Source: Acinetobacter colistiniresistens
Lineage (GTDB): Bacteria > Pseudomonadota > Gammaproteobacteria > Pseudomonadales > Moraxellaceae
NCBI RefSeq assembly: GCF_000413935.1
Contig: NZ_KE340384.1
Location: 1 to 64,000, forward strand
DNA length: 64,000 bases
Direction: 5' to 3'
This document shows, piece by piece, positions 21,492-36,837 of the stretch (positions are counted from its first letter, which is position 1; every line of letters starts with the position of its first letter). The notes beneath the pieces are model-generated. The model saw only the letters and a list, made by a program, of their open reading frames with translations, did not search any database and was not told where the DNA came from. The translations under genes were made by a program, and so were the position numbers.

Positions 21492-21516
21492 TTAGGTGAA
21501 TAGCGGACAAAAAAAA

Positions 21517-21542
21517 GCTCAGTTATATAGGGATAACTGAGC
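21517..21542 (-). terminator. Strong terminator, best read on the minus strand
   Basis: A perfect 10-bp stem (GCTCAGTTAT / ATAACTGAGC) with a 6-nt loop has a run of eight A on its left side, which is a T run for minus-strand transcripts. It lies 25 nt past the tsaC stop codon. Because the T tract is on the minus strand, it best ends leftward transcription from the ABC transporter block 370 nt away. Confidence 0.75.
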
Positions 21543-21909
21543 ATAAAAAGGATGTGTATAAGCACATCCAGAGGGTTCATCAATTTGGTGAGCAACGTAT
21601 TCATTATCCAATGAATCATCTTGCTATGTTTGCTATTATGAGGGAATAATCACATTTATACAAATATATTATTTATCTAACAAAAAGTGTGAAAAGCGTA
21701 CAATTTTTGTCACTCCTACATTTTCAATAAAATTATATTGATATTTTTATTCAACTTTTTTTGATCATAAATTCAAGAGTTGTTAAAAATATATTTGCAA
21801 ATCATATAGAAGACACGGCAAAAAAATTTTAATTTTAATTTTAGATGCTTAAAATCTGATAATAAATAGATGATCCAAGCTGATTCATCTATTGATCATC
21901 ATAAAAATA
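21543..21909. other. AT-rich region without a gene
   Basis: No protein gene is visible between the terminator at 21517 and the stop of the last ABC permease. A 9-bp inverted repeat (AATAGATGA / TCATCTATT) lies at 21865-21893, shortly after that stop, and could be a weak first terminator. The remainder is very AT-rich and would be the 3' untranslated region of the operon if transcription runs on to 21517. Confidence 0.45.
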
Positions 21910-22827
21910 TTAAGGAATAAAGGATTTCCCCAATGATGCAGGTAAGTTCATTTGCAATAGTTTTTTATCACGTGAAATCAGGACCAGAACTAAAATCGTA
22001 ACCACATACGGCAACGCAGCCAGTAATTCGACAGGCAGATCCAGACCCAACGCTTGCGCATGGAATTGTAAAATGGTGACACCACCAAATAAATAAGCAC
22101 CGACTATCAATCGTGCAGGTTTCCAGACCGCAAATACCACTAGTGCAATGGCAATCCAACCACGGCCTGCTACCATATTTTCAACCCATAATGGCGTATA
22201 TACCGTTGATAAAAATGCCCCACCTATTCCAGCCATTGCTCCACCGAACAACACGGCACCATAACGAATCAACAGTACTGGATAACCCATGGCATGTCCT
22301 GACTCTGGTGACTCGCCCACCGCTTTAAGCAATAAACCCAGCTTGGTTTTTGCCAAAATCCACCAAATGACAAAAAAAGATAAAATCGATAAATACACCA
22401 TATAATTTTGGTGAAATAAAATCGGCCCAATAAAAGGGATCTCCGACAGGACGGGAATATCCAGTGCCTTTAGCCCCTCCAAACTGTTACTGACAAAATG
22501 TTGCCCCACGAAAGCGGATAACCCTACACCGAAAATGGTTAATGCAAGCCCACATGCAGCCTGATTAGCTGCGAGCGAAAGGGCCAAAATTGCAAAAATG
22601 AGTGCAGCACTCGCACCTGCAATGGCCCCTGCCAAAAGTCCTGCCGCAGGCCCTAGACCTGTGCTTGCACAAAAAGCAAAACCCGCAATGGCACCAATCA
22701 ACATCATGCCTTCAACACCCAGATTAATCACCCCTGTTCGCTCTGCAACCAACTCACCCATTCCTGCAAAAATCAGGGGTGTGCCTGCGGCTAGAGTACC
22801 CGCCAAAATTGGAACTAAATCAATCAT
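21910..22827 (-). CDS. ABC transporter permease, nucleoside/BMP type (NupQ-like)
   Basis: This second inner-membrane permease of a purine nucleoside importer has 305 residues and about eight to nine membrane segments. It contains the conserved MGELVAERTGVINLGVEGMMLIGA opening and the AVGESPESGHAMGYPV coupling region near 190-205. This is the branched-chain-type permease fold (BPD_transp_2). TTAGGAG lies 6 nt before the start. It follows its partner permease by 9 nt. With the ATPase at 23972 and the BMP lipoprotein-like binding protein at 30783 it makes a complete importer. Confidence 0.9.
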   Translation of the reverse strand: MIDLVPILAGTLAAGTPLIFAGMGELVAERTGVINLGVEGMMLIGAIAGFAFCASTGLGPAAGLLAGAIAGASAALIFAILALSLAANQAACGLALTIFGVGLSAFVGQHFVSNSLEGLKALDIPVLSEIPFIGPILFHQNYMVYLSILSFFVIWWILAKTKLGLLLKAVGESPESGHAMGYPVLLIRYGAVLFGGAMAGIGGAFLSTVYTPLWVENMVAGRGWIAIALVVFAVWKPARLIVGAYLFGGVTILQFHAQALGLDLPVELLAALPYVVTILVLVLISRDKKLLQMNLPASLGKSFIP

Positions 22828-22836
22828 GTCTAACTC

Positions 22837-23943
22837 CTAAGCTGTTTCAATGGATGCAATCGAAGATGTATGCTTTTTCATTGTTTCAGACCTGCCAAAC
22901 CGATAGCGATTTTCGATGAAAGCATCCGCAGCCAATAAGAAAAACAACAACATTCCCTGAAATAATCCTGTAATTGCCGCAGGAAGCTGTAGATTTAGCT
23001 GTGCGGTTTCTCCACCAATGTAGAGCAAGGCCATCAAAAATCCTGACAAAACAATCCCGATCGGGTTTAATCGTCCCACATACGCCACAATAATTGCGGC
23101 ATAACCATAACCTGGGGAAATATTTGGATTGAGTTGTCCAACCGGACCTGCAACCTCACCAATGCCTGCAATACCTGCCATAAAACCTGAAATCATAAGA
23201 CTAAACCAGATAGCCTGCTTTGCAGAAAACCCCGCGTAGCGTGCAGCATCAGGTGCTTGACCACCGACTTCAAGCTGATATGCAAGAAAACTGCGTTTAC
23301 TAAACAGCCAGAATGCCAACACTGCAAAAATGGTCACCCCAATCACAGCATTGATTCGTGTGCCTTCAAATAAAATAGGAAATAAAGTTCCACCGTCGAA
23401 CATAACCGATTGTGGAAAATTCATGCCTTCAGGATCTTTCCACGGCCCGTTAATCAAATACAGTAAAATAAATGTCGCAATATAATTCAGCATTAATGTG
23501 GTCAGAGTTTCTTGCGCATTAAAATGGGTTTTTAGTAATGCAGGAATAGCTCCCCATAAGGCTCCGCCAATTGCACCCGCAATCACCATAGAGGGTAAGA
23601 CCCAGAATGCGGAGGTTCCCTGACAGGCAATGGCTAAACCACCGCCAAAAATTGCCCCCATAATAAGCTGGCCTTCAGCACCGATATTAAAAATACGGGC
23701 TTTAAATCCAACAGATAGGCCTAATGCAATTAAAATTAAGGGGCTGGCTTTAATAATCAACTCACTCCAGCCATACCAACTGGATAAGGGTTCAATAAAG
23801 AACACCAGAAATGCTTCAAGCGGATTTTTGCCTAAAATCATAAATAATAGGCCACCAATAGAGAATGTTGCCACCAAAGCAATTAAGGGAGAAAGCCACT
23901 TCATTAAAATCGATGGATGATCACGCGGTTCGAGTAAATGCAT
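22837..23943 (-). CDS. ABC transporter permease, nucleoside/BMP type (NupP-like)
   Basis: This first permease of the same importer has 368 residues and about nine membrane segments. It has the RIFNIGAEGQLIMGAIFGGG motif near residues 82-101 and a coupling region at EVGGQAPDAARYAGFS. GGGG lies 6 nt before the ATG. It starts 28 nt after the ATPase gene ends and pairs with the NupQ-like subunit. Family members in firmicutes and spirochaetes carry guanosine and other nucleosides. Confidence 0.9.
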   Translation of the reverse strand: MHLLEPRDHPSILMKWLSPLIALVATFSIGGLLFMILGKNPLEAFLVFFIEPLSSWYGWSELIIKASPLILIALGLSVGFKARIFNIGAEGQLIMGAIFGGGLAIACQGTSAFWVLPSMVIAGAIGGALWGAIPALLKTHFNAQETLTTLMLNYIATFILLYLINGPWKDPEGMNFPQSVMFDGGTLFPILFEGTRINAVIGVTIFAVLAFWLFSKRSFLAYQLEVGGQAPDAARYAGFSAKQAIWFSLMISGFMAGIAGIGEVAGPVGQLNPNISPGYGYAAIIVAYVGRLNPIGIVLSGFLMALLYIGGETAQLNLQLPAAITGLFQGMLLFFLLAADAFIENRYRFGRSETMKKHTSSIASIETA

Positions 23944-23971
23944 ATGTAACCCCAGTTCAAATGATATAGAC

Positions 23972-25579
23972 CTAAGCGGATGCGTCTAAAACGCTTGGAC
24001 TTTGCGATTGCCGATGCAATCCGGACATCATCAAACCAATCGTTTCAGCATTGGTTTCATTCACAGGTTGAGCTTCACTTAGGCGACCTGCGGCCAAAAC
24101 AGCAATTCGATCACTGATCTCAAATAACTCTTCCAATTCTTCAGAAATTACAATAATGGCGACACCCTGACGCGACAGATCAATTAGTGTTTGACGAACA
24201 AAGGCGGCTGCACCGACATCGACCCCCCAAGTGGGTTGGGCCACCAGCATAACTTTAGGCTGTTGCAAGATTTCACGACCTACGATGAATTTTTGTAGGT
24301 TGCCACCCGACAAAGAACGCGCGACAGCCGCCGTTCCAGAGGCCTTTACCGCAAATTTCTGCATACAGTCTTGTGCAAAATGACGCGCTTTTTCGTAATT
24401 GACCAATCCATAACGCACAAAACCTTGTCGAAATGCGGTCAGTAAAGCATTTTGAGTTAGACTCATCGCGGGAATAGCGCCTCGTCCCAAACGTTCTTCA
24501 GGCACAAAACCAAAACCCAGTGCGCGGCGCTGTCCCGCATTTAAATGGCCGATCGCCCGTCCCTCTAACATTACGCAGCCTTTTGCAGTCGTTATTTCGC
24601 CAGACAAGGCCGTCAACAGTTCGGCTTGCCCATTTCCTGAAATACCTGCAATCCCCAGAATCTCTCCTGTTTTCACACTAAGCTGAATATGTTCGAGCGA
24701 GGTTCCAAAAATATCAAGTGCCTGAACATTGAGCTGTTTCACTTCAAATATAGGCTTACTCTCGCCTACATAAACAGGATGTTCATAAGCAGGAAGATCA
24801 CGCCCAATCATCATCTTAGCCAGACTCACGGTACTTTCCTGTTTAGGAATAGCAGTTCCTGTCACGGTTCCACCCCGTAAAATAGTAGCGCAATCACATA
24901 AGCTCTGTATCTCATGGAGTTTATGACTGATATATAAAATTGATACCCCTTCACTGGCTAAACGGCGTAACGTTTCAAACAAGATTAATACCGCTTGAGG
25001 CGTGAGTACCGAAGTAGGTTCATCTAAAATTAACAATGATGGGTTTTGCAATAAACAACGTACAATTTCAACACGTTGTCGCTCTCCAACCGATAAACTA
25101 TAAACGGTTCTTTTCGGATCAATGGGCAATCCATACTTTTCAGAGACTGCAATGACGCGCTTGGATAATACGTTTAGATCAAATTTTTCATCCAGACTCA
25201 GGGCAATATTTTCCACTACCGTCAACGTTTCAAATAAAGAAAAATGTTGATACACCATACCGATTCCCAAACGTCGGGCCGCAGCAGGACTTTCGATCGT
25301 GACAGAGCGACCATTCCAGACAATTTCTCCTTCATCAGCCTTGACTGCCCCATAAATAATTTTCATCAGGGTACTTTTGCCTGCCCCGTTTTCACCCAAT
25401 ACTGCATGGATTTCACCGGGTGCGACCTGTAAATTAATATGGTCATTGGCCACTAAACTGCCATACTGTTTCGTTATATTGATTAACTCCAGACGATTTT
25501 TCTGCAAGATAGGTGCAGGTCTGCTGGTGCTCATATTCAAGTCTGGATTAACAGAGATTTTATCGGTCGGTAAAGCCAT
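23972..25579 (-). CDS. ABC transporter ATP-binding protein, nucleoside type (NupO-like)
   Basis: This 535-residue ATPase has two fused nucleotide-binding domains. The first domain carries Walker A GENGAGKST, signature LSVGERQRVE and Walker B LLILDEP. The second has the altered Walker A GISGNGQAE, signature LSGGNLQKF and LVAQPTWGVD in place of a canonical Walker B, as usual for sugar/nucleoside importers of this class. It drives the two adjacent permeases. It is the third-from-last gene of the block and follows the deaminase gene by 98 nt. Confidence 0.92.
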   Translation of the reverse strand: MALPTDKISVNPDLNMSTSRPAPILQKNRLELINITKQYGSLVANDHINLQVAPGEIHAVLGENGAGKSTLMKIIYGAVKADEGEIVWNGRSVTIESPAAARRLGIGMVYQHFSLFETLTVVENIALSLDEKFDLNVLSKRVIAVSEKYGLPIDPKRTVYSLSVGERQRVEIVRCLLQNPSLLILDEPTSVLTPQAVLILFETLRRLASEGVSILYISHKLHEIQSLCDCATILRGGTVTGTAIPKQESTVSLAKMMIGRDLPAYEHPVYVGESKPIFEVKQLNVQALDIFGTSLEHIQLSVKTGEILGIAGISGNGQAELLTALSGEITTAKGCVMLEGRAIGHLNAGQRRALGFGFVPEERLGRGAIPAMSLTQNALLTAFRQGFVRYGLVNYEKARHFAQDCMQKFAVKASGTAAVARSLSGGNLQKFIVGREILQQPKVMLVAQPTWGVDVGAAAFVRQTLIDLSRQGVAIIVISEELEELFEISDRIAVLAAGRLSEAQPVNETNAETIGLMMSGLHRQSQSPSVLDASA

Positions 25580-25677
25580 CAGGTCATCTCTTTAGCTCAT
25601 GTGATTAGAGAGAAGCAAGGGGCATGCCATGCTGCAATCACTTTATTTTGTGGATCATATTTAAATAAAAAATCTGT

Positions 25678-26184
25678 TTAGTGACTTAATTCAGTCCAAA
25701 ACCCTTGATGTGCTTGCGCTGCTTCTTCACTCAAACACGGCCCAATGACCCTGATTTCGCGTTGTCCACTAGCAAATACCTGACGACAAGGTAAAGATAA
25801 TGTCGGGTTTTCTGGGTGATTCCCTGTAATTTCGAGGAGTTGTGTTTCACTCATGCCATAGACGACCCGACCAATGCCGGTCCAATAAATCGCACCAGAA
25901 CACATCGCACAGGGTTCAGCATTGGTATATAAAGTACAGTTACGCAACTGTTCCAATGACAAAAGTCGTGCGGCCTGCCCTGCTGCAACAGTTTCAGCAT
26001 GACGGGTGGGATCACCCGTCGGAGGTAATGAATTATTGCCTGCCTGAGTGACAACCTCGCCTAGTGCATTCACCACAATTGCAGCAAAGGGATGCAAGCC
26101 TTGCAATTTAGTTTGTTCTGCCAATTCAAACGTTTTTCTTAGAAAAAACAGATCTTGCGCTGTTGCCTGATCATTTAATGTCAT
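25678..26184 (-). CDS. Nucleoside/guanine deaminase (CMP-dCMP deaminase family)
   Basis: This 168-residue zinc deaminase has the catalytic HAE at 62-64 and PCAMC at 91-95 (zinc ligands His62, Cys92, Cys95; general acid/base Glu64). Overall layout is close to the small GuaD-type guanine deaminases, which turn guanine into xanthine. tRNA adenosine deaminase is less likely, because the gene sits in a purine transport block and lacks the TadA arginine/lysine-rich profile. The product xanthine would be a plausible substrate for the Rieske oxygenase of the same block. Activity is inferred. Confidence 0.8.
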   Translation of the reverse strand: MTLNDQATAQDLFFLRKTFELAEQTKLQGLHPFAAIVVNALGEVVTQAGNNSLPPTGDPTRHAETVAAGQAARLLSLEQLRNCTLYTNAEPCAMCSGAIYWTGIGRVVYGMSETQLLEITGNHPENPTLSLPCRQVFASGQREIRVIGPCLSEEAAQAHQGFWTELSH

Positions 26185-26281
26185 TTTGATGTCTCTTTTA
26201 ATTCAATAACGATTGATCTTAAAGACGGAGCGTAAGTAAAAATTTTCTATTTAGGCTCTATCTGCATCATTGCCGATATTT

Positions 26282-27190
26282 TTAAAAATGATAGTCAACC
26301 CGAACCATTGGTGTACTGGCCGTGGCACCTTTTCCTGCAAAGCCATCGCTGTCACTGCCAAATTTATTTTTCCAATACTCATAGCCTGCGCCTGCGCGTA
26401 ACTTGCTGCCTTTTAACCCAATAACTGGGCCCAAGTCATACATCACACTTACATCAATATGGGTTTCAGCTTTTGTATCACCACCAGACTCATTTTTTCC
26501 TTTTGAATCAATCCAAAGTGCATATCCTTCAAAAGATAGCGGTGTTTTTCCAATTGGAATGCCCCATGTAAACTGTGCAGCAGCATGAGTGTCATAGGTG
26601 TAACGCCCCGAAGAATACCCAAATCGCGGGGTATCTGATGAAGGATCATTACTTTCAAATAATGCCAATACGCTAAAATCTAGAAAACCAGGCACATCAA
26701 ATTGAATAGTTGGCCCTACGACCCACATACGTTTTTTTGAACCATAACTATCATTTTTAGTGTTCCAGTCCAGCCCCAATGTTAAACCTGCACCACGAAT
26801 GTAACCTGGTACAGATAAATTTGTTTTAGTAATGGCGCCAACATCCAGATAACGACGAATGACCACATAGGCTTCCTGAGTTCCTTTAGCATTGGATTGA
26901 GTGCTATTCGGTTCATCATCTGACTGAAGCAAATCGACATTAAAGAAATTTGAACCATACTTATCACCACTGGCATGGGTCAGATTAAAAATTTGTTTGG
27001 TGATATCGGTACGACTGCCATCTGAATCATTTTTATACGGTTCTGCAAATTGTGATCCATAACGCCATCCAATAGAGGTATCGCTCCATGTGGAAGCCTG
27101 TACAGATTGCATGGTTCCAATTCCCCCCAGAATAGTAGCCATAGCAGTCATTAGCGTTTTTAATGCATTCTCTTGTTGGAATACCTTCAT
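26282..27190 (-). CDS. Outer-membrane nucleoside channel, OmpK/Tsx-like
   Basis: This 302-residue protein has a signal peptide ending at VQAS near residue 33. The mature part is rich in alternating beta strands and aromatic residues and ends in DYHF, a typical outer-membrane barrel terminus. The opening WSDTSIGWRYGSQFAEP resembles the Tsx/OmpK channel family, which passes nucleosides. GGGG lies upstream of the ATG. In this block it would bring nucleosides or bases into the periplasm for the BMP importer. Confidence 0.82.
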   Translation of the reverse strand: MKVFQQENALKTLMTAMATILGGIGTMQSVQASTWSDTSIGWRYGSQFAEPYKNDSDGSRTDITKQIFNLTHASGDKYGSNFFNVDLLQSDDEPNSTQSNAKGTQEAYVVIRRYLDVGAITKTNLSVPGYIRGAGLTLGLDWNTKNDSYGSKKRMWVVGPTIQFDVPGFLDFSVLALFESNDPSSDTPRFGYSSGRYTYDTHAAAQFTWGIPIGKTPLSFEGYALWIDSKGKNESGGDTKAETHIDVSVMYDLGPVIGLKGSKLRAGAGYEYWKNKFGSDSDGFAGKGATASTPMVRVDYHF

Positions 27191-27502
27191 TGCACATTTC
27201 CCCTTATCATGTTCTCAAGATCAAAGCTCACAATATTCATCTCAAGACTCATAATGATGGCTTTTCAAAAATCACGTTTGCCCAATGCAAAACGATCTGA
27301 CCCTGTGATAAAGGCAAATTTCCTACCAAAGATTGGCATATTAAAAATGTGCAATGTTGCTTATGTTAAAACAGATATAAACAATAAGATGATTGTTTTG
27401 AACCGATGTCATGAAATCACAGACAGAATTTAGCACAGGAAAATGAGCGTTATCTTCCTGTGCTTAAGCAGAAGTAATTGAGACAATGAGCTTAGATATT
27501 GG
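27191..27502. other. Intergenic region upstream of the OmpK/Tsx-like gene
   Basis: There is no gene here. A 9-bp inverted repeat (GCACAGGAA / TTCCTGTGC) at 27431-27461 lies 40 nt past the LysR stop codon and may end its transcript, though the T tract is poor. The rest should hold the promoter of the channel gene. I could not pick a convincing -10/-35 pair by eye. Confidence 0.45.
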
Positions 27503-28444
27503 TTAATTGACCACATGACTATCGTTTCTCAGAACCGAAATCACCAACTCTCTGAACCAGCGAAACTCAGGAGAACGATGCTGACGTTCATGCCAAAGTA
27601 GATAATAGGAAATTTTGGGAAACTGGATTGGCGCATCGGAAATAGTCAAAGGCAATAATGCACTATAATGGCGAGAAAATGAGCGCGGCGCAGAAAAAAT
27701 CGCGTCAAGTTGTAGCAGCATATAAGGAATCATTCCAAAGTACGGAATAAATGCCACAATATTACGTTTTAGGCGTTCTTTGGATAAATGTAAATCGATA
27801 ACTCCACGTTGCCCAACGGTATAAGGTGTTGGAGCAATATGATCAGCATTAAGATAATCATCCATCGACAAGGTCTTATGCGCCAGAGGATGTGACTTAC
27901 GCAGCAAACAGACCACTTCATCCTCGAACAATGGAGCAAGCCGTAAATATTCAGGAGGCTGTGGCCAGTTACCAATCACCGCATCGTACATACCACTTTC
28001 CAATGCGTGTGCATAATCTACATTATGTCCCATGGAATGCATGATGACCGTGCAATGGGGTGCTTCAACATGAATCCTGCGAAGAATTTCACCAATCGCG
28101 ATGGGGTTTAAATAGTCCGATGCTGCCAGATTAAATATCTGACGCGATTGTGCCGGATCAAAATTAACTTGTTGGGTGGCAATTAATTCAAGCTGGCTTA
28201 ATACCTGACTCACTGGCTCGAGTAAGGATAAACCACGCTCAGTAGGGGTCATGCCATTACGGCTACGCACCAAAAGCTGATCACCTGTGATCTCCCTTAA
28301 TTTTTTTAAAGCGGTACTAATGGCCGGTTGTGATTGATTTAGTCGTTTGGCTGCATTAGAGACACTTTTTTCTGTTAAAAGCATATATAAAACTTGCAGC
28401 AAATGTGCATCTAATGCTTCCCATTTATTTGTAGGATGAATCAC
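27503..28444 (-). CDS. LysR-family transcriptional regulator
   Basis: This regulator of about 313 residues has an N-terminal winged helix (SVSNAAKRLNQSQPAISTALKKLR) and a C-terminal substrate-binding-like effector domain. The frame opens at a GTG at 28468. The GTG at 28444 is preferred because AAGGA lies 7 nt before it. It lies between the oxygenase genes and the channel/deaminase/ABC genes, all on the same strand, so it is the likely regulator of the purine block. The effector is unknown, perhaps a purine intermediate. Confidence 0.88.
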   Translation of the reverse strand: MIHPTNKWEALDAHLLQVLYMLLTEKSVSNAAKRLNQSQPAISTALKKLREITGDQLLVRSRNGMTPTERGLSLLEPVSQVLSQLELIATQQVNFDPAQSRQIFNLAASDYLNPIAIGEILRRIHVEAPHCTVIMHSMGHNVDYAHALESGMYDAVIGNWPQPPEYLRLAPLFEDEVVCLLRKSHPLAHKTLSMDDYLNADHIAPTPYTVGQRGVIDLHLSKERLKRNIVAFIPYFGMIPYMLLQLDAIFSAPRSFSRHYSALLPLTISDAPIQFPKISYYLLWHERQHRSPEFRWFRELVISVLRNDSHVVN

Positions 28445-28562
28445 CAATCTGTCCTTATCTAAGATCACCCGAGTCCATAGGCAAAATTTATACCATCTCT
28501 GGGCTACAATAAGGCAGAACGATTCATAATGATGAAAATAAAAACGATTTTTACGATTTATC

Positions 28563-29180
28563 TCAGTTGATAGCCAATAAACCAGCCATTGGAATAAATT
28601 TTGGTTGATGGCGAATATGATTGATCCAACGACGAATGTGTAAAAAAGGCAGCAAACTTACACCCGCATCCCAAGCCAATGCAACTTGAGGAAATACAAT
28701 CAAGTCAGCGGCCGTCAGTTGCCCACGCAATAAATAACGGTGTCCGCAAATGGTTTGCTCACATAAATGATCATCCAGCTCACGGAACTGCTGCGCTGCC
28801 TGCTGAAGTAATCTTTTCTCATCTGTCAAAAATTGATCCATTGTCAGACCGGCCTGACGTAATTGTCCCAAACTCAGTTTGAGTTTCTCATTAAAATCAT
28901 GCCACTCCTGTATTTGCGATGACAAATAAACTGGTATCCATTGAGATTGTGTTCCTGTTAATTCAATTAAATATTGAAAGATAAACATCAGCCCAGATAT
29001 GTTTGAAGAAGAATCTAATAAAACTGGCGATTCAAATTGATTATCGAACTGTTCAACATCTGCATATACAGACTGGTAAGGAAGTTGTAAAAACTCAAGT
29101 AACAAACGTACGCTATAGCAATCTGTCGATAATGGATCATCGGCAAAATTTAGAGGCAATGTTGATAGATTCACGTTCAT
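28563..29180 (-). CDS. GST-like protein coupled to the split Rieske oxygenase
   Basis: This 205-residue protein has a glutathione S-transferase-like layout: an N-terminal thioredoxin-like part (DPLSTDCYSVRLLLEFL) and a helical C-terminal domain (LLRGQLTAADLIVFPQVALA). Its start overlaps the stop of the oxygenase gene by 4 nt (ATGA), so the two are translationally coupled. In the caffeine-degrading NdmCDE complex of Pseudomonas, a GST-like protein (NdmE) is a structural partner of a Rieske-less oxygenase. A similar scaffolding role is possible here. That comparison is inference; catalytic GST activity is not excluded. Confidence 0.78.
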   Translation of the reverse strand: MNVNLSTLPLNFADDPLSTDCYSVRLLLEFLQLPYQSVYADVEQFDNQFESPVLLDSSSNISGLMFIFQYLIELTGTQSQWIPVYLSSQIQEWHDFNEKLKLSLGQLRQAGLTMDQFLTDEKRLLQQAAQQFRELDDHLCEQTICGHRYLLRGQLTAADLIVFPQVALAWDAGVSLLPFLHIRRWINHIRHQPKFIPMAGLLAIN

Positions 29181-30091
29181 ACCACTTGCTCCGTTTGTAT
29201 GCTTTTATGTACTCCATAGCTCCAATTCTTGGTGATCAGCCATTTGCGATATGCAGTCGCCAGTGCATCAGCTTTGGTCGGAATTTCCAGTTTGTCCAAA
29301 GGAAGTTTTAAAGGCACATGATTTTCCAGAATCGGTTTGTCCTGAGTAAAAATTTTCTGCTGAAATAAAACCATATCGGTCATGCTGCTCGTCTGATCAT
29401 CCAAAATCATCAGCAAATGCGCCCGAATATGAGTTTCACTCAGGGGTTGAATAAAAAGACACACTACATCAGCAGGAATAATCCCCTTAGCCGCAGTATT
29501 CACTTTATATAAAATCGCGTTTAAGGGGGAAGCAACGCGATAGATATATTCAGTTTCCTGCGGCTGGGGTGAACTCGGTGCGGCAAGTGGTTGCGTAAAA
29601 AAACACTCCGTTGCCCAGATTTCATCGACATCTTCACGCCATTCAACGTGATAGGGTTTGACTGCAGTTTCTGGTTCAGCTCCCAAAATACCAGTATGGA
29701 CATACGGAAAATGTGCCATATCCAGAAAATTTTCTATGCCACGTAGTGGTGAAGTGCGTACCCCGTAAGCACCACACGGCACACGGCGTGCCTCTACAAC
29801 CTCATATTCATCAAGCTGAAATAATGGTTTTTTTTCAGTTCCGACACATAACCATACAAACCCAAAAGCCACTTGCACAGCCAAATTCAACATGTCTACA
29901 TCGAGTGAATCGAACTTCACCTGATAAACATGGACATCATTGATGATATCTCGATGGATCGTTAAAATTTGTCCATCCAGACATGTTTTTATCTGCTGGC
30001 ACCGAACGAATTCCTGCTCTGACGCAACCACAATCCATTCCCCCATCAAACTAGATGAAATCATCTGCGAATACTGCTGTGTATTAGGCAT
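29177..30091 (-). CDS. Rieske-less oxygenase subunit (mononuclear iron domain)
   Basis: This 304-residue protein resembles the catalytic half of VanA-type Rieske non-heme iron oxygenases. The iron site is readable as NFLDMAHFPYVHTG, giving Asn121, Asp124, His127 and His132. A possible third ligand lies in TQDKPILENH near 275. It has no CxH/CxxH cluster, so it cannot hold a 2Fe-2S centre. The missing cluster is supplied by the neighbouring protein, whose gene overlaps this one by 8 nt. Substrate is unknown; the purine context suggests a purine base. The layout recalls NdmC/NdmD. Confidence 0.8.
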   Translation of the reverse strand: MPNTQQYSQMISSSLMGEWIVVASEQEFVRCQQIKTCLDGQILTIHRDIINDVHVYQVKFDSLDVDMLNLAVQVAFGFVWLCVGTEKKPLFQLDEYEVVEARRVPCGAYGVRTSPLRGIENFLDMAHFPYVHTGILGAEPETAVKPYHVEWREDVDEIWATECFFTQPLAAPSSPQPQETEYIYRVASPLNAILYKVNTAAKGIIPADVVCLFIQPLSETHIRAHLLMILDDQTSSMTDMVLFQQKIFTQDKPILENHVPLKLPLDKLEIPTKADALATAYRKWLITKNWSYGVHKSIQTEQVV

Positions 30092-30755
30092 GGCTGAGTT
30101 TCTCCGACTCCAGATTTTCTCGCATCTGTCTTAATAAAGGATAACATTGAGTAGGCTTTGCGCTTTGTAATAGCATGGCATGTACCGTTACAACATTGGT
30201 CTGTGTCGGCGTGAGATAAATACGCAATCTACGATCTGCTGCATCATCTCGCCAACTCAATCCATTATGCATAGCGCATTCAGTCAAACCCGCTTCCAAT
30301 AAATAATCTTGTACTTGAGGGAGTGTGACCGAGATAGTGACAGACCCTGCATAGACTAATTGTATTTCCTCAAATAAAGGATCAATGTCAGGTAAAGCAT
30401 CTTCGCCATACCAGATCAGGCCTGAATTTTCCATGACTGCATAAGATCTTGCACATACACTTTTCGGTGCGCGCTGTTCAGGCTGAGCAGGAATACGCTG
30501 ACAATGCCCATCTTCTGCGGCAAACTGCCAACCGTGATAGGCACAGACCAGACTTTCACCCTGTACCTGCCCCAAACTTAAACGCACACTACGATGTGGA
30601 CAACGGTTTTCCCAGATTTGAACATGACCCTGCATGGAACGCCAGACAGCAACATCTTTCCCCCTCACCAGAACCTGCTCTACCTCACCTGTTTCGATCA
30701 GTATAGAAGGGACTAACGGAATCCATTGACCTGTAATCATGCCCATTTTCCTCAA
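30084..30755 (-). CDS. Rieske 2Fe-2S protein, partner of the Rieske-less oxygenase
   Basis: This 223-residue protein has a complete Rieske motif: Cys52-Pro-His54 and Cys71-Ala-Tyr-His74 (CPHR and CAYHGW). The remaining 120 residues look like a short remnant of the oxygenase fold but lack the two-histidine iron site. It therefore should carry electrons but not bind substrate iron. It is the first oxygenase gene after the binding-protein gene (27 nt gap). Together with the next gene it would form one functional oxygenase from two polypeptides. A ferredoxin reductase is needed but absent from the window. Confidence 0.85.
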   Translation of the reverse strand: MRKMGMITGQWIPLVPSILIETGEVEQVLVRGKDVAVWRSMQGHVQIWENRCPHRSVRLSLGQVQGESLVCAYHGWQFAAEDGHCQRIPAQPEQRAPKSVCARSYAVMENSGLIWYGEDALPDIDPLFEEIQLVYAGSVTISVTLPQVQDYLLEAGLTECAMHNGLSWRDDAADRRLRIYLTPTQTNVVTVHAMLLQSAKPTQCYPLLRQMRENLESEKLSHA

Positions 30756-30782
30756 TATAACTTAAACCACTTTGCCCAATTT

Positions 30783-31961
30783 TTATTTTGGCAATACACC
30801 TTGCACGCCTTGTACATAGAAGTTCATTTTGTCGAGTTGCGCTTCGGTATAAGCACTCCCCGCCTTAACAAATTCTTTACCTGCCTGTGTATATAGAGGG
30901 CCAGCAAATGGATTCAATTTGCCTGCTTTAATCGCATCACGACGAGCTAATACCATCTTTTTGGCATCCGCAGAGACCGCTGTGCCAATATTTTCAACAT
31001 TGATCGTGCCTTCTTTTACACCAGAGTAGATCGGTGCATTGCTCCATTTTTTCGCAGCAACATCTTTCAGCACTTTGTCGTAAATCGGATCCCAATGTAG
31101 TACCGCAGCACCCAATTGCGCATCGCCACCAAATTTACCCATATCTGAGTTCCAACCTAAGCCCCAAACACCTTTTTGTTTGGCTGCCTGAACAACTGCT
31201 GGCGAATCAGTATTTTGTAATAACACATCACAACCTTGTGAAATCAAAGCCAATGCAGCATCACGTTCTTTACCCGGATCAAACCATGAACTCACCCAAA
31301 CCACCTGTGTCGTGATTTTTGGATTAACACTACGCGCGCCAATGGTAAAAGCATTGATATTACGCACTACTTCTGGAATGGGGTAAGAACCGACAAATCC
31401 AATTTTATTGGTCTTACTTTTGCTTCCTGCCAATACACCCAGTAAATAAGCCCCTTGATAGGTACGGATATTGTAGTTACCCATATTCTTACCAGACTTA
31501 TAGCCCGTCGCATGCATAAATACGGTATTCGGATAAGTACGTGAAACTTTTTCCATCGCATTCATATAGCCAAATGACGTTCCGAAGATCACTTTATTGC
31601 CTTGCTGTGCTAGATTACGAAATACTCGCTCCGCATCTCCTGTTTCAGGCACATTGGCAACAAAGGTGGTTTTTACTGCTCCTTTCAGATCTTTTTCGGT
31701 GCGAATGCGAGATTGGTCATGTGCATATGTCCAGCCATGATCACCTGGCGGACCAATATAAACAAAAGCTGCTTTGAGTGGATCAGCCGCATAAGCTGCA
31801 GTCACCATTGTTGCTGTTGTCGATAGAGCCCCTACGGTGAGTAAACCACTACTAGCCGCACAAAATGCGGTCTTTTTAAATTTTGAGAATAATTTTGAAA
31901 ATAAACCCTGCGGGCTTTGATCGTGTAACGTATTTGGATTTTTGTTCATTTCAATAGGCAT
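30783..31961 (-). CDS. BMP-family ABC substrate-binding protein
   Basis: This 392-residue periplasmic binding protein has an unusually long N-terminal leader (about 30 residues before the hydrophobic signal) and a cleavage site near ATMVTAAYAADP (about residue 59). The mature part shows PLKAAFVYIGPPGDHGWTYAHD, the hallmark opening of BMP/Med proteins, and YKSGKNMGNYNIRTYQGAYLLG. Family members bind purine nucleosides. GGGG lies 7 nt before the ATG. No lipobox cysteine is present, so it is probably soluble. It is the first gene of the purine block. Confidence 0.9.
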   Translation of the reverse strand: MPIEMNKNPNTLHDQSPQGLFSKLFSKFKKTAFCAASSGLLTVGALSTTATMVTAAYAADPLKAAFVYIGPPGDHGWTYAHDQSRIRTEKDLKGAVKTTFVANVPETGDAERVFRNLAQQGNKVIFGTSFGYMNAMEKVSRTYPNTVFMHATGYKSGKNMGNYNIRTYQGAYLLGVLAGSKSKTNKIGFVGSYPIPEVVRNINAFTIGARSVNPKITTQVVWVSSWFDPGKERDAALALISQGCDVLLQNTDSPAVVQAAKQKGVWGLGWNSDMGKFGGDAQLGAAVLHWDPIYDKVLKDVAAKKWSNAPIYSGVKEGTINVENIGTAVSADAKKMVLARRDAIKAGKLNPFAGPLYTQAGKEFVKAGSAYTEAQLDKMNFYVQGVQGVLPK

Positions 31962-32313
31962 CGCATTACCCCAATTTTGTTATGGTATAAACGCCAGAAA
32001 ATAAAATTGCTCGAATCACAATGATCTATTTTCCAGAATACATAGAGGTAAAATGCAACGTTTGCGCCAACATTCAGTTTAATATTTTTAATTGATCATT
32101 TTTAAATAAAGGTTATACAAAAATTAAAATAGATCACTCTTTAAATTAAAAATAAAATTCATAACAATCAAATTGTTAAAATAAATTTTTTTAGCAACCG
32201 CTACTTTCTCTTACGGCGCAATAATCGCTCCAAAAAGTAATTTCTTGATCGTGATAATTATTTTGCACAAGTGTGGAACATCTAGGACCCACACCTGCTT
32301 CAAAATCGTATTT
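31962..32313. other. AT-rich region upstream of the purine block
   Basis: There is no gene here. The right part (32270-32300) holds a short inverted repeat, GTGTGG / CCACAC, just past the EamA stop codon that may terminate that gene. The remainder should contain the promoter and regulatory sites of the purine block. I saw no known purine riboswitch signature by eye and no clear promoter. Confidence 0.4.
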
Positions 32314-33231
32314 CTAATTCCGAAGTAACTGCGCTACCTTTGCAGGAGTTTTCTTCTGTGCCATGACAATACCGATCAGAATCATGATCCCACCAATGCT
32401 ATGATAAACAGTCCAATGTTCCGACAACCACAGGCTGGCAATAATTGCGGTAAATACAGGCATTAAATTCATAAAAATACTGGTACGGTTTGGGCCAATC
32501 GCCTGTACCGCCACCATCCATAATAAAGGTGCAATCAGCGATGGAAACACCCCTGCATAGAAAACACTGGCTGCATTTTCAGCATTAATCCCATCTAGGC
32601 CAAGCCAGAGTAGAAATGGCAGGTGATACAACAATGCAAACGCAATTTGTACATATAGACTGGTCAGCAATGGCAATTGCAGCTGCCATTTTTTTAGAAA
32701 AACCCCATAAAAGGCATAGAACCCGACAGCGAGTACCATCACCGCATCGCCCCAGTGTCCGCCCTGTGCAAACAAACTGGAAATATGCCCTTGGCTCATG
32801 ACATAGATCAAGCCAGCAAAGGACAACAGACTGCCAAAAATCGCAAAACGGTTTGGTGCATCTTTTAAAATGAAATAAGAGATAAAAATGGTAAATATCG
32901 GGACAAAGGCATTCACAATGCCCATATTGGTTGCGGTGGTATAATGCGCTGCGGTATAAGAAAGACCTTGATACAACACCATCCCAAAAGCACTCAACAC
33001 CGCTAATTTAGGCAGGTATGGCACAATTAAACTGCGCTGTTTCCATACCTTGGGCAACATGAATGGTGTTAAAATCAGAAAAGCCACAAACCAACGATAA
33101 AAACTAATACTGACGGGTGAAATATAATCAGCCACATAACGAGTCACCGCAATATTCAGCGACCAAATCAAGACGGCAATCAAGGGCAAGACAAAGGCCC
33201 ATTTTTGGTATTTACTCAACTGACCCATCAT
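32314..33231 (-). CDS. EamA-family (DMT) inner-membrane permease
   Basis: This permease of about 305 residues has ten membrane segments in two EamA repeats. The first begins AVLIWSLNIAVTRYVADYISPVSISFYRW. The second carries WMVAVQAIGPNRTSIFMNLMPV, a common closing motif. Such proteins export amino acids or other small metabolites; the substrate here is unknown. The frame opens at a TTG 45 nt earlier, but the ATG at 33231 follows GTGAGAAA. A CACAATAT-12-ATATTGTG inverted repeat sits directly upstream. Confidence 0.85.
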   Translation of the reverse strand: MMGQLSKYQKWAFVLPLIAVLIWSLNIAVTRYVADYISPVSISFYRWFVAFLILTPFMLPKVWKQRSLIVPYLPKLAVLSAFGMVLYQGLSYTAAHYTTATNMGIVNAFVPIFTIFISYFILKDAPNRFAIFGSLLSFAGLIYVMSQGHISSLFAQGGHWGDAVMVLAVGFYAFYGVFLKKWQLQLPLLTSLYVQIAFALLYHLPFLLWLGLDGINAENAASVFYAGVFPSLIAPLLWMVAVQAIGPNRTSIFMNLMPVFTAIIASLWLSEHWTVYHSIGGIMILIGIVMAQKKTPAKVAQLLRN

Positions 33232-33236
33232 TTTCT

Positions 33237-33264
33237 CACAATATCTCAGCAATGCTATATTGTG
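33237..33264. promoter_or_regulatory. Inverted repeat before the EamA gene
   Basis: CACAATAT and ATATTGTG form perfect 8-bp arms around a 12-nt centre, 6 nt upstream of the ATG. It could be an operator or a 5'-UTR hairpin that includes the ribosome-binding region. Symmetry is seen directly; function is inference. Confidence 0.45.
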
Positions 33265-33333
33265 AAAGATGTCCAAAATAATTGAAATATTGAATTTCAG
33301 ACATTTATATCGCGCTCACGACATCTGTTATGC

Positions 33334-33978
33334 TTAGAATAGCTCCCAAGCACGCATGGCGTGTTCAACCACCCGATGCAATTGTTCAACCGTCGCACCA
33401 TCGCGTGCCTGAATAGTTAGCCCCTGCACAACCGTTGCATAAAAGTCTGTCATTTCCTGTAAAGGCGCTGTTGCTGGCAAATCCCCGTTGGCAACGCCCT
33501 GCTCTAAACGTTCAAACAGTTTTTGCTTGGTCTGCAAACGTTTTTCCAGAATATTGTGTTGCACCGCCTGTGCATTGTCCGAGCAGTTCATGGTTGCAAC
33601 CACCAACATACAGCCTGCTGGTTTATTGGGTTGAGCCAAACGTTTGACGTTGTCATATAAATAAAGCTCAAATGCAACTTTGGCGGTTTTGGCTTCTAAA
33701 AAAATAGGAATTATCGGGCAAGCTTCATGTGCCAAATAATAATCGATGCATTTATAAAACAGCCCAGCTTTATCACCAAAACTGCTGTATAAACTCGGGG
33801 CAGTCAGCTCTAGCGCTTGTGTCAAATCACTGATTGACGTAGCTTCATAACCATGCTCCCAAAATAACAACATTGCTTTTTCCAAAGCCTGCTGCTCGTC
33901 AAAACACTTCGGACGACCACGCTTCTTTTTCAAGCTATCATCACATGGTGTTGGCAGAGGATCAGGTGCATTTGTCAT
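33334..33978 (-). CDS. TetR-family regulator of the MFS exporter pair
   Basis: This repressor of about 214 residues has a basic KKKRGRPKCFDEQQALEKA lead-in and the TetR helix-turn-helix (TSISDLTQALELTAPSLYSSFGDK). The frame opens further upstream at a TTG (34041) and at an ATG (33999). The start is uncertain, and I prefer 33978 because the upstream part overlaps operator DNA. It is divergent from two tandem MFS genes. The four GATC-centred palindromes upstream of both exporters and over its own start region are its probable binding sites. Confidence 0.85.
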   Translation of the reverse strand: MTNAPDPLPTPCDDSLKKKRGRPKCFDEQQALEKAMLLFWEHGYEATSISDLTQALELTAPSLYSSFGDKAGLFYKCIDYYLAHEACPIIPIFLEAKTAKVAFELYLYDNVKRLAQPNKPAGCMLVVATMNCSDNAQAVQHNILEKRLQTKQKLFERLEQGVANGDLPATAPLQEMTDFYATVVQGLTIQARDGATVEQLHRVVEHAMRAWELF

Positions 33979-33997
33979 AACAGTCACAGGTATTTTC

Positions 33998-34012
33998 ATA
34001 ACGATCACTATC
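33998..34012. promoter_or_regulatory. TetR operator copy 1
   Basis: ATAACGATCACTATC is an imperfect GATC-centred palindrome of the form TATARYGATCRYTATA. It overlaps the 5' end of the tetR frame and lies 8 bp upstream of the -35 box of the first exporter promoter. Its centre is 56 bp from that of copy 2. Confidence 0.65.
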
Positions 34013-34019
34013 AAACTAA

Positions 34020-34048
34020 TTGACGCAGCAACATTAATCAACTATTTT
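34020..34048 (+). promoter_or_regulatory. Promoter of the first MFS exporter
   Basis: The -35 box TTGACG and -10 box TATTTT are separated by 17 bp. The promoter is flanked by operator copies 1 and 2. The same boxes with the same spacing recur at 35517-35545 before the second exporter. Confidence 0.7.
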
Positions 34049-34050
34049 AT

Positions 34051-34070
34051 TTTATAGCGATCATTATAAA
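34051..34070. promoter_or_regulatory. TetR operator copy 2
   Basis: TTTATAGCGATCATTATAAA is a nearly perfect palindrome placed just after the -10 box, over the likely transcription start of the first exporter. A repressor bound here would block initiation. Confidence 0.75.
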
Positions 34071-34123
34071 ACTTATTATTTTTAAATTTTATTGTTATCC
34101 GACTAACAATAAACGGAATTTTT

Positions 34124-35356
34124 ATGGAAAACTCATCTGCAACTGAGATCAGCTCACTGGAGTCAAACCCTTCGCAAGGGAACTGGCTCGCGCTGCTTTC
34201 AGTGACATTCAGTGCCTTTGCTTTAGTTACGGGTGAATTTCTTGCCATTGGCGTACTCAACGACATCGCACGGGATTTCCAGATCTCAGTGGGAACAGCG
34301 GGTCTCACGGTTTCGTTAACTGCAATTGTGGGTATGTTCGCTGCTGTGCTGATTCCAATTTCAGCGAAGACACTCGATCGACGTAATTTGCTCTTGCTGC
34401 TCACTCTGTTCATGATTGTTGCCAATCTTCTTACTGCATTTGCGCCTAACTTTCTCCTGCTTTTAGTCGGGCGCATTATTTTGGGCGTTGCTGTTGGAGG
34501 CTTCTGGGCCACTGCGGTTGCTTTAAGCGGCCGTCTTGCACCCCCTCATTTACCCATTGCCAAAGCTACCGCATGGGTCGCGTTCGGAGTCACTTTAGCC
34601 AGTGTATTGGGTGTTCCCATGGGCACCTGGCTGGCTCAATATAATGGCTGGCAAACCTCTTTCACGGCGATTTCATTGATGGGGATATTCCTGTTTATAT
34701 TCCAGTATCTATACCTGCCTCAATTGAAACCCGCATCTTCCCTACGCTGGAAAGAGCTTCCGATCCTGCTACAACATCAGGCTGCACGTAAAGGACTGAT
34801 TATCTTTCTTTTTATGGGTTTCGCACATTTTGCAGCTTATAGTTATTTTTCTGCCTTTTTTAAGCATGAACTGGATTTCTCTGAGGGCTTGATTAGCCGT
34901 TTACTGCTGGTCTATGGGATCGCAGGGATTTTTGGCAATATTTTTGCGGGCTACCTCGGACAGATCAATATTCGTTATACCTTCGCAGTGAGTGGTATTG
35001 CCTTCTTGTTTGCCTTTCTCAGCCTGCCGCTGTTTGGCACCCATATCATCTCTGCAATCATATTGACTGCCGTGTGGGGCTTCGCTTATGGCATTATTCC
35101 AACTGCAGTCAACATCTGGATGTTTACCCATGCACCCGAAGCCGTTGAAAAAGGCATGCCTATGGTAACATTGACCTTTTTAATCCTGATTGCGCTAGGC
35201 AGTATGTTTGGCGGCATTATCGTTGATTATTTTAATGGTACGATCTTATTTTTTGCCATGCTGCCCTTGGTCTTCTGTTCTCTGGTATTGATCTTTACGC
35301 TGGCACGCGGCTTAAACAATCCTAAAAACCATTATCAAAACAATAATACAGGCTGA
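34124..35356 (+). CDS. MFS exporter, first tandem copy
   Basis: This 410-residue major facilitator of the DHA1 drug/metabolite efflux type has 12 membrane segments. It has the family motif around LDRRNLLLLLTLFMIVANLL (motif A region) and GRIILGVAVGGFWATAVALS (motif B/C region). GGA lies 6 nt before the ATG. It is under a promoter flanked by two TetR operators. It is roughly half identical by eye to the next gene, so the two are tandem duplicates. The substrate is unknown. Confidence 0.88.
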   Translation: MENSSATEISSLESNPSQGNWLALLSVTFSAFALVTGEFLAIGVLNDIARDFQISVGTAGLTVSLTAIVGMFAAVLIPISAKTLDRRNLLLLLTLFMIVANLLTAFAPNFLLLLVGRIILGVAVGGFWATAVALSGRLAPPHLPIAKATAWVAFGVTLASVLGVPMGTWLAQYNGWQTSFTAISLMGIFLFIFQYLYLPQLKPASSLRWKELPILLQHQAARKGLIIFLFMGFAHFAAYSYFSAFFKHELDFSEGLISRLLLVYGIAGIFGNIFAGYLGQINIRYTFAVSGIAFLFAFLSLPLFGTHIISAIILTAVWGFAYGIIPTAVNIWMFTHAPEAVEKGMPMVTLTFLILIALGSMFGGIIVDYFNGTILFFAMLPLVFCSLVLIFTLARGLNNPKNHYQNNNTG

Positions 35357-35490
35357 GATGGAACCTGTCTGTGATCAATGATGAATGGTCGCCGCTATAG
35401 TACGATAAGTTAAGGCGACCGTATTGATTGCTTTCTGTTCCAGCATCCATTTCCCCGACCATGCAAATTTATAATAAGCCTTACAGATAT

Positions 35491-35512
35491 TTTTATAATG
35501 ATCACTATAAAA
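35491..35512. promoter_or_regulatory. TetR operator copy 3
   Basis: TTTTATAATGATCACTATAA and flanks form a GATC-centred palindrome just upstream of the second exporter's -35 box. It corresponds to copy 1. Its centre is 56 bp from that of copy 4, the same spacing as copies 1 and 2. Confidence 0.75.
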
Positions 35513-35516
35513 ACAT

Positions 35517-35545
35517 TTGACGACCTTCTATTTATGCACTATTTT
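35517..35545 (+). promoter_or_regulatory. Promoter of the second MFS exporter
   Basis: The -35 box TTGACG and -10 box TATTTT have a 17-bp spacer, identical to the promoter at 34020-34048. Operator copies 3 and 4 flank it. Confidence 0.7.
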
Positions 35546-35546
35546 A

Positions 35547-35568
35547 TTTTATAGCGATCGTTATAAAA
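35547..35568. promoter_or_regulatory. TetR operator copy 4
   Basis: This is a GATC-centred palindrome with arms TTTTATAGC and GTTATAAAA, placed directly after the -10 box over the transcription start. It is the most symmetric of the four copies. Confidence 0.75.
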
Positions 35569-35622
35569 AATTAATCAATTCTTCACCCTTTTGTCATGCT
35601 ACTGACAAATAAGGATATTCAC

Positions 35623-36837
35623 ATGGAACAATCCACCTCTTCAGACACCCGACCCACTGAAACTACACAAGGAAGCTGGTATGCAATTTTAGCGGTAGCT
35701 GTTGCTGCCTTTGCACTGGTCACCAGTGAATTCTTACCTGTGGGCGTCCTCAATAGTGTCGCGACCGACTTGAATATTTCAGTAGGCACAGCGGGATTAA
35801 TCATTACCTTACCTGGTGTTATGGCTGCAATTGCAGCGCCGCTCTTGCCCATTTCCGTGAAACAGCTTGATCGACGCTATGTATTGATCTTGCTGACCGC
35901 AATTATGGTGATCGCCAATACCATTACTGCTTTTGCAGATAGCTTCAATGTGTTATTGCTTAGCCGCTTGGTACTGGGGATTTCAATTGGCGGCTTCTGG
36001 GCCACCGCCATCGCGTTAAGTGGCAAACTTGCACCCGCACATTTGCCAATTGCCAAAGCTACTGCGATTGTCATGGCTGGTGTTACTTTTGCTACTGTAC
36101 TCGGTGTTCCAATCGGGACTTGGCTCAGTGAATTCTATGGTTGGCGCAGCGCCTTTGGAATTACCGCTGCCATCGGCTTAGTGGTGTTAGTACTGCAACT
36201 GATTTTCTTACCTGCACTAAAACCTGAATCTGCCATTCATTTACATGATCTGCCCGCCCTACTCCGTACACCAAAGGCGCGTAGTGGTATGTTGATTGTC
36301 CTGTTAATTGGTCTAGCTCACTTCTGTGCCTATAGTTATTTAGCGCCTTTCTTTAAAAATATTGCAGGCTTTGATGGTACCACCATCAGTTCATTGTTGT
36401 TGCTCTACGGTATTGCAGGTATTTTTGGTAATGCATTTGCTGGCTATAGCGGCAATTTAAATGTGCGCTATACGCTCGCCTTTGTCGGGATCTGTTTTGT
36501 AATCGTATTTTTCGGCTTCCCGATTTTCGCGACTCACCAGTTTGGGGCAATTGTATTGACTGCTTTATGGGGGTTTGCATTTGGTGCTTTCCCGACTTCA
36601 GCCAATATCTGGATGTTCGTGCATGCCCCTCACGCTGTTGAAAAAGGTATGCCGCTATTTGTAGGGATGTTCCAAGTGATGATTGCCACGGGTTCATTAC
36701 TCGGCGGCTATGTGGTTGATCATTTCAATGAAAATATCTTAATTTATGGTGTAATTAGTTTTGTTGCCTTGGCATTGATCAGTATCTTCACTTTGGCCAA
36801 AGGCTTGAATAACCCCAAAGTGACTTTCGAAAATTAG
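35623..36837 (+). CDS. MFS exporter, second tandem copy
   Basis: This 404-residue DHA1-type major facilitator has 12 membrane segments and the same motifs as the first copy (QLDRRYVLILLTAIMVIANT, SRLVLGISIGGFWATAIALS). The frame opens at an ATG 27 nt earlier. The ATG at 35623 is preferred because AAGGA lies 7 nt upstream. It has its own promoter with the same pair of TetR operators. An AraC-type regulator follows after 14 nt, so that gene is probably co-transcribed. The substrate is unknown. Confidence 0.88.
   Translation: MEQSTSSDTRPTETTQGSWYAILAVAVAAFALVTSEFLPVGVLNSVATDLNISVGTAGLIITLPGVMAAIAAPLLPISVKQLDRRYVLILLTAIMVIANTITAFADSFNVLLLSRLVLGISIGGFWATAIALSGKLAPAHLPIAKATAIVMAGVTFATVLGVPIGTWLSEFYGWRSAFGITAAIGLVVLVLQLIFLPALKPESAIHLHDLPALLRTPKARSGMLIVLLIGLAHFCAYSYLAPFFKNIAGFDGTTISSLLLLYGIAGIFGNAFAGYSGNLNVRYTLAFVGICFVIVFFGFPIFATHQFGAIVLTALWGFAFGAFPTSANIWMFVHAPHAVEKGMPLFVGMFQVMIATGSLLGGYVVDHFNENILIYGVISFVALALISIFTLAKGLNNPKVTFEN

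Follow-up and report, generated by a model that had tools for sequence, protein, structure and literature searches.

Both the Rieske motif and the 2-His-1-carboxylate iron site of a Rieske oxygenase are present in the 64,000-nucleotide stretch of the Acinetobacter colistiniresistens genome analysed here (assembly GCF_000413935.1, contig NZ_KE340384.1, positions 1 to 64,000; hereafter the window), but they reside on two proteins, a small Rieske protein (A) and an NdmC-like catalytic protein (B), whose overlapping genes are followed by that of a glutathione S-transferase (GST)-like protein. Judged from predicted models, A and B each look like a whole alpha subunit composed of one working and one decayed domain, and the impression is of an alpha-subunit gene present twice, with complementary degeneration of the two copies, rather than of a single gene that was cut. 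We consider it probable that these reciprocal copies rebuild one enzyme, which would have the GST-like protein as a partner, borrow its reductase and act on a guanine-related purine. Split oxygenases of the NdmCDE type are already known; the free-standing form and the reciprocally decayed copies are the additions made here. The features on which the argument rests are the following.

30084..30740, minus strand: protein A, a free-standing Rieske protein of 218 amino acids (Pfam Rieske, E 1e-19; its open reading frame (ORF) reaches a TTG at 30755)
30534..30602, minus strand: Rieske cluster motif of A, C47-H49 ... C66-H69 (codons checked; all four ligands invariant across 25 aligned sequences, the window's included)
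30090..30359, minus strand: tail of A, a shrunken catalytic domain without iron ligands, predicted to run strand-helix-strands-helix (AlphaFold2 (AF2) model, structure alignment and hhalign)
29177..30091, minus strand: protein B, an NdmC-like catalytic protein of 304 amino acids (VanA_C, E 2.7e-19)
29837..30049, minus strand: N-terminus of B, a Rieske scaffold without the ~47-residue cluster-binding insert (hhalign E 7e-16)
29696..29722, minus strand: iron motif of B, D124..H127....H132 (codons checked; invariant across 31 aligned sequences, the window's included)
29339..29341, minus strand: D251 of B, the probable third (carboxylate) iron ligand (invariant in the same 31 rows; aligns with the EDKP stretch of NdmA)
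28563..29180, minus strand: GST-like protein, in the position of NdmE (weak Pfam GST_C_2 match; phmmer)

For protein A the ATG at 30740, with GAGG 9 nucleotides upstream, is a likelier start than the TTG at 30755, and numbering from the ATG turns the C52, H54, C71 and H74 of an earlier reading made from the letters alone (the sequence-only reading) into C47, H49, C66 and H69. That reading had assigned a full Rieske motif and no mononuclear-iron site to A, and D124, H127 and H132 but no Rieske cysteines to B; both descriptions hold, the D..H....H motif not being found in A nor a Rieske motif in B. D251, which it had not named, is probably the third iron ligand. The genes of A and B overlap by 8 nucleotides and those of B and the GST-like protein by 4 (ATGA), the latter as previously described, and the GST-like assignment of the third gene is borne out by a Pfam GST_C_2 match under the curated cut-off (E 0.00093) and a phmmer match to a solved GST (E 2.9e-6).

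Each of the two proteins retains a remnant of the other's domain. The first ~90 residues of B align to the Rieske domains of full-length oxygenases with an hhalign score of 85.4, compared with 16.9 at most in the controls (reversal and 30 column shuffles), and the alignment skips about 47 residues that comprise both cluster-binding loops. The last ~100 residues of A match the catalytic domain of B with a score of 28.8 (E 5e-4; best of 30 shuffles 14.5). In the predicted structures, residues 1-215 of A (AF2 model; predicted local distance difference test score, pLDDT, 87.5) align to residues 5-289 of SxtT (Z 20.4, root-mean-square deviation 2.4, 211 residues), and residues 10-295 of B (pLDDT 85.2) to SxtT 1-334 (Z 30.7); SxtT or SxtDIOX/GxtA are also the best PDB sequence matches of both proteins. 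The models align over nearly their whole length with single-chain oxygenases (SxtT/GxtA, NdmA, NdmB), which differ in carrying both metal sites on one chain, whereas each window chain retains a single site, the other being present in decayed form. Because a remnant of the other domain persists in each half, a single cut cannot yield A and B, and we infer that the pair is better explained by a duplication with complementary loss thereafter. Sequence comparison over the genus suggests that the decayed parts diverge fast and that the functional halves are strongly conserved: between the window and A. baylyi (locus L035), A is 64% identical in its Rieske part and 22% in its tail, and B is 39% identical in its N-terminus and 86% in its catalytic part.

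The two genes also travel together. Orthologues of B (at least 67% identity) occur in 10 of 149 Acinetobacter genomes and orthologues of A in the same 10; the gene order BMP-A-B-GST is found in all ten, with a LysR gene next to it in eight. This fits the earlier proposal of an oxygenase divided over separate Rieske and iron-site proteins with a GST partner, and no A without B was found among the 149 Acinetobacter genomes. Beyond that set, a pattern-based scan of a genome contig collection with the B alignment returned 57 loci, nine from Acinetobacter (including A. baylyi, A. ursingii and A. proteolyticus) and the rest from other Proteobacteria and from Actinomycetota. At the locus itself, A is free-standing in 16 cases and fused to a VanB-like reductase in 20 (one cut by a contig end); in 17 the stretch examined contains B without A, and the remaining 4 have a single-chain oxygenase only. 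For the 17 B-only loci, searching the whole genomes located A as a free protein in 6, as a fusion in 10 and as a contig-end fragment in 1. Counted by genome, the 57 loci thus divide into 22 where A is free, 30 where it is joined to a reductase in the manner of NdmD, 4 with the single-chain enzyme only and 1 with only the fragment. The whole-genome search took in 25 B-bearing genomes (the 17 B-only, 7 with free A at the locus and 1 fused) and found an A-family protein in every one, with matches of at least 190 bits in 24 of them and one A present only as a contig-end fragment; homologues occurring without each other, which would have spoken against a joint enzyme, were not seen in this sample. 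A GST gene lies beside A or B in all 22 free-standing cases.

In a plasmid collection, a B homologue (E up to 1e-30) is present in 213 of 72,556 records, 124 of them from Rhizobium and 65 from Sinorhizobium. Ten plasmid regions were opened, five of which have a free A in the order A-B-GST-amidohydrolase-BMP-ABC-permease-permease; the other five consist of three with fused A (by annotated length), one from P. caffeinilytica annotated only as VanB oxidoreductase, and one without annotation. The free-standing form is therefore common and not peculiar to the window locus, and the observation that its Rieske half lacks a fused reductase extends from the 218-residue A to the 22 loci counted above.

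A plainer explanation would have A as a Rieske ferredoxin of the ordinary kind, shared by several oxygenases, and B as taking electrons from any Rieske protein, the two merely sharing an operon. The Rieske part of A does align to ferredoxins, but the plain Rieske ferredoxin 2qpz covers 103 residues of the model only (Z 16.8), and A is predicted to fold like a whole alpha subunit, with a further folded domain beyond the ~100-residue Rieske fold and a tail that is not found in ferredoxins. With A and B confined to exactly the same ten of the 149 Acinetobacter genomes, and with reductase fusions of A next to B in other lineages, we regard the ferredoxin explanation as improbable and reject it. 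That two halves of a common enzyme lie on two consecutive ORFs might also be taken to indicate a full-length oxygenase gene broken by fission or frameshift and no longer functional; the remnant of the other's domain in each half, the strong conservation of the functional halves over the genus and the recurrence of split pairs in other classes and in Actinomycetota leave this idea with scarcely any credibility, and it is likewise rejected.

The sequence-only reading had named NdmCDE as the nearest precedent, and this is supported: B stands beside an NdmD-like Rieske-reductase fusion in 20 of the 57 loci, and the fusion lies elsewhere in the genome in 10 more. NdmCDE is the N7-demethylase of Pseudomonas putida CBB5 (PMC4408171, PMC13237722), in which NdmC has the iron and no Rieske cluster, NdmD supplies the Rieske cluster and is itself the reductase, and the GST-like NdmE has been proposed to be structural (PMC4408171); the structure of the complex is called unsolved in a 2026 paper (PMC13237722). 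The window set shares with it a B-type catalytic protein lacking the Rieske cluster, a Rieske cluster on a separate polypeptide and a GST-like third protein, and window B falls into one clade with the B proteins beside NdmD-like fusions at 36-42% identity, a comparison made among the scanned loci. It differs in that its Rieske protein is free-standing, whereas NdmD is a Rieske protein fused to a reductase, and in that its operon has a purine importer and a deaminase in place of ndmA/ndmB. The N-terminal part of the NdmD-like fusions consists of A together with its tail, and one of the fusions has a C-terminus that matches the solved NdmD ferredoxin domain (6icm, E 7.5e-17); by their sequences, NdmD-like proteins appear to be protein A fused to a reductase. 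A search of the open-licence literature retrieved no description of a free-standing Rieske partner for an NdmC-type protein. For the Acinetobacter strains S40, S54 and S55, ndmC and ndmD hits in separate clusters have been reported, with no ndmE in the account given of them (PMC8055839). Strain S54 is our locus L030, where A and GST flank the B gene, and the E-value suggests that the reported ndmC hit is this B gene.

In the catalytic-domain tree, the 56 split B rows group together in a single clade apart from the 11 full-length rows (support 99/93), whilst the deep forks among the split clades are poorly supported (52/33, 58/72). The careful B tree holds 67 rows and a quick one 71; L023, L082, L083 and L085 were removed as very long branches, and same-genome duplicates (L024-L028, L086-L090) are in neither. 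With B-only rows labelled as free or fused according to their genome, the catalytic-domain tree requires three changes in all, a single one separating full-length from split forms and two separating free from fused; with B-only kept as a label of its own the counts are larger. The Rieske-domain tree (111 columns, many open forks) places the 20 fused forms in one clade (97). In Pelomonas (L155, G534:C10) every component is a gene of its own, in the consecutive order BMP, A, B, reductase, GST and full-length oxygenase, an arrangement such as one would expect before a fusion.

Unsplit relatives provide a further comparison. HpxDE of Klebsiella and the HpxD-like (by eye) oxygenases of the Acinetobacter purine loci L021-L023 and L096 are likewise Rieske oxygenases of purine catabolism; the Acinetobacter enzymes differ from the window pair in being full-length and are 23-27% identical to B over the catalytic part, whereas the difference from HpxDE is that neither A nor B has both motifs and that no reductase is found among the window operon proteins. 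A closer relative is encoded at the betaproteobacterial locus L078, which is 43% identical to B over the catalytic part and resides in a locus with BMP-ABC and 8-oxoguanine-deaminase genes, but is unsplit, with the Rieske and iron motifs on one ORF. In loci L021, L022 and L023, from other Acinetobacter, genes for the same BMP-ABC purine importer occur close to those for full-length Rieske oxygenases, and in L023 an HpxE-like reductase lies between two oxygenases.

Several loci show further arrangements. A Rhodospirillales metagenome-assembled genome carries two B genes on one contig (L156, G517:C211, and L038), the first beside a CDA deaminase and a BMP-ABC importer without an A of its own, the second with A and GST near xanthine-dehydrogenase-like genes. 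Pandoraea terrae (L157, G523) has two facing sets, one reading BMP-ABC-full-length oxygenase-A-B-GST and the other B-GST-free reductase-formaldehyde dehydrogenase-permeases. On pSymA of Sinorhizobium meliloti (L153), a single NdmD-like fusion and a GST gene come after two adjoining genes annotated as oxygenase alpha subunits (~288 and ~301 amino acids), and a gene of the xanthine dehydrogenase family is close by. In the Acidimicrobiia loci L067, L068, L072, L073, L074, L076, L077 and L079 a full-length oxygenase is found ~1 kb upstream of B in each.

In ordinary Rieske oxygenases a bridging Asp relays the electron between neighbouring subunits, from the Rieske cluster in one to the iron in the next. 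By analogy, A, which keeps the [2Fe-2S] Rieske site next to a shrunken, ligand-free catalytic domain, would supply the cluster, and B, which keeps a 2-His-1-Asp iron site next to a Rieske scaffold with the cluster-binding insert deleted, would supply the iron through D124, H127, H132 and D251; the electron would move from A to a neighbouring B, and D124 may serve as the bridging Asp. In known Rieske oxygenases this crossing takes place between the subunits of a C3 assembly (PMC12445004). The GST-like protein would be a structural partner, as proposed for NdmE, and the reductase feeding A would be borrowed from elsewhere in the genome. The window GST is 26-34% identical to the GST-like proteins of related loci. 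As read from the alignment, the block NPxGx(I/L)P is missing in three Acinetobacter GST-like proteins and kept in five non-Acinetobacter relatives, and the former also lack a ~12-residue stretch that the five relatives keep; this hints that glutathione binding may have been lost in the Acinetobacter proteins.

A number of observations weigh against the proposal of one rebuilt enzyme. Strict alternation of A and B misfits the reported C3 oligomers, which makes the quaternary structure a puzzle, and the assembly would have to be mixed in some other way. No reductase is found in the window operon by ORF list and Pfam, for which reason one is presumably borrowed from elsewhere in the genome; five relatives of an HpxE-like reductase are encoded there, two of them adjoining other oxygenases (by eye). 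Genomes G517 and G523 each have two B genes and one A of this type among the matches listed. The tree comes with a warning that long branches may be drawing the split rows and a group of full-length rows together. The match of the A tail to the catalytic domain of B is weak by sequence (probability 30%), and weaker still to that of full-length enzymes (E 0.0034, probability 9.5%), and the structure predictions are of single chains, A or B. A formaldehyde dehydrogenase, finally, is found in 0 of 9 Acinetobacter loci and 1 of 13 other free-standing loci in the stretches examined.

A more far-reaching account joins these threads. An alpha subunit would have been duplicated and the copies would have lost opposite cofactors, giving an obligate A-B pair held together by the GST-like protein; the free-standing pair would be the parent of NdmCDE, NdmD having arisen by fusion of A to a reductase; the active ring, in which A and B would have to alternate, would for that reason not be the usual three-fold trimer, its assembly being new among Rieske oxygenases; and the set would belong to a catabolic route of wide occurrence for purines that derive from guanine and may be methylated or 8-oxidised. 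We offer this account tentatively, and on balance doubt that it will hold in all its parts.

The substrate is suggested by the operon. The three genes belong to a minus-strand run that descends from 31961 to 21910 in the order BMP, A, B, GST-like, LysR, outer-membrane protein, deaminase, ATPase and two permeases, the remaining members of which are:

30783..31961, minus strand: BMP/PnrA-type binding protein of an ATP-binding cassette (ABC) importer, AtzT-like (phmmer to AtzT, E 1.7e-113)
27503..28468, minus strand: LysR regulator (Pfam; adjoins the set in 8 of the 10 split Acinetobacter genomes)
26282..27190, minus strand: barrel-like protein of the outer membrane, resembling Tsx by eye (no significant Pfam match)
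25678..26184, minus strand: CDA-fold deaminase (best solved relative a guanine deaminase, 1wkq, E 4.7e-17)
23972..25579, minus strand: ABC ATPase of the importer (Pfam)
22837..23943, minus strand: ABC permease 1 (Pfam)
21910..22827, minus strand: ABC permease 2 (Pfam)

The importer was also considered as a vitamin B6 transporter and this was rejected, as the NCBIfam B6 models score far under their cut-off and AtzT matches far better. AtzT holds guanine with a dissociation constant (KD) of about 110 nM (PMC6834077). Taken together, the AtzT-like importer, the guanine-deaminase-like enzyme and the 8-oxoguanine-deaminase-like neighbours at related loci make a purine base the likely substrate: a guanine-related base would enter through the ABC system and be processed by the oxygenase and the deaminase jointly. 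As reactions, N7-demethylation of the NdmC kind and ring (C8) hydroxylation are the most likely.

An N7-demethylase for 7-methylguanine or 7-methylxanthine would, with the guanine-deaminase-like enzyme, yield xanthine and formaldehyde, and B does share its clade with the B proteins of NdmD-like loci. A formaldehyde dehydrogenase is expected beside a demethylase. One of the FrmA type occurs in 4 of the 20 fusion loci and in Pandoraea, and another adjoins the B gene of Paraburkholderia caffeinilytica together with an S-formylglutathione hydrolase; against this stand the counts for the Acinetobacter and other free-standing loci given above and the five rhizobial/rhodobacterial free-standing loci opened, in which no formaldehyde genes are annotated. 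The xanthine-dehydrogenase-type domain PF02738, which is also found in other molybdenum hydroxylases, matches in 6 of the 10 split genomes compared with 10 of 139 others (Fisher p 1e-4, phylogeny uncorrected), but has no match in the remaining 4. The Acinetobacter ndmCD homologues could act on 7-methylxanthine (PMC8055839), yet S40, S54 and S55 are not among the eight caffeine-growing strains of that report, in which caffeine was tested and not 7-methyl purines. We hold demethylation to be a real possibility, somewhat short of an even chance.

The enzyme may instead hydroxylate an unmethylated purine, e.g. guanine to 8-oxoguanine or xanthine to urate, as a molybdenum-free route for which HpxDE sets a precedent (PMC7373994). 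An amidohydrolase is the next gene in the five plasmid loci, and the two that were scanned (L145, L146) are closest to 8-oxoguanine deaminase at 371 and 401 bits (cut-off 532), whilst the amidohydrolase of the single-chain locus L078 passes that cut-off with 638 bits; the importer resembles the guanine-binding AtzT, and PF02738 has no match in the window's genome. Its presence in six of the ten split genomes points the other way, as do the demethylating activity of the nearest characterised relatives (NdmC) and another full-length oxygenase of the window's genome, HpxD-like by eye and beside an allantoinase, which could do this job. We hold hydroxylation to be about as likely as demethylation, or slightly less so. 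The idea of the enzyme as a simple stand-in for xanthine dehydrogenase was rejected on the same six genomes with PF02738. The window's genome, which has no match to PF02738 (MoCoBD_1), nevertheless has a transthyretin-like (HIUase-type) gene and an allantoinase.

The free-standing A-B-GST set indicates that fusion to a reductase is not a requirement for the Rieske part, and the anatomy of A suggests that NdmD-like proteins have, in their middle region, a catalytic domain that has decayed. A and B would make it possible to mix and titrate the two metal centres of a Rieske oxygenase as separate, naturally occurring proteins. The set furthermore marks a purine-related operon on rhizobial plasmids and in A. 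baylyi, where the substrate is directly testable.

An Rfam search over 21000-34500 (E up to 1) gave zero matches, and hence no riboswitch match. On the plus strand at 34124-36837 the window carries two adjoining look-alike genes for major facilitator superfamily (MFS) transporters of 410 and 413 amino acids, apparently a tandem duplication.

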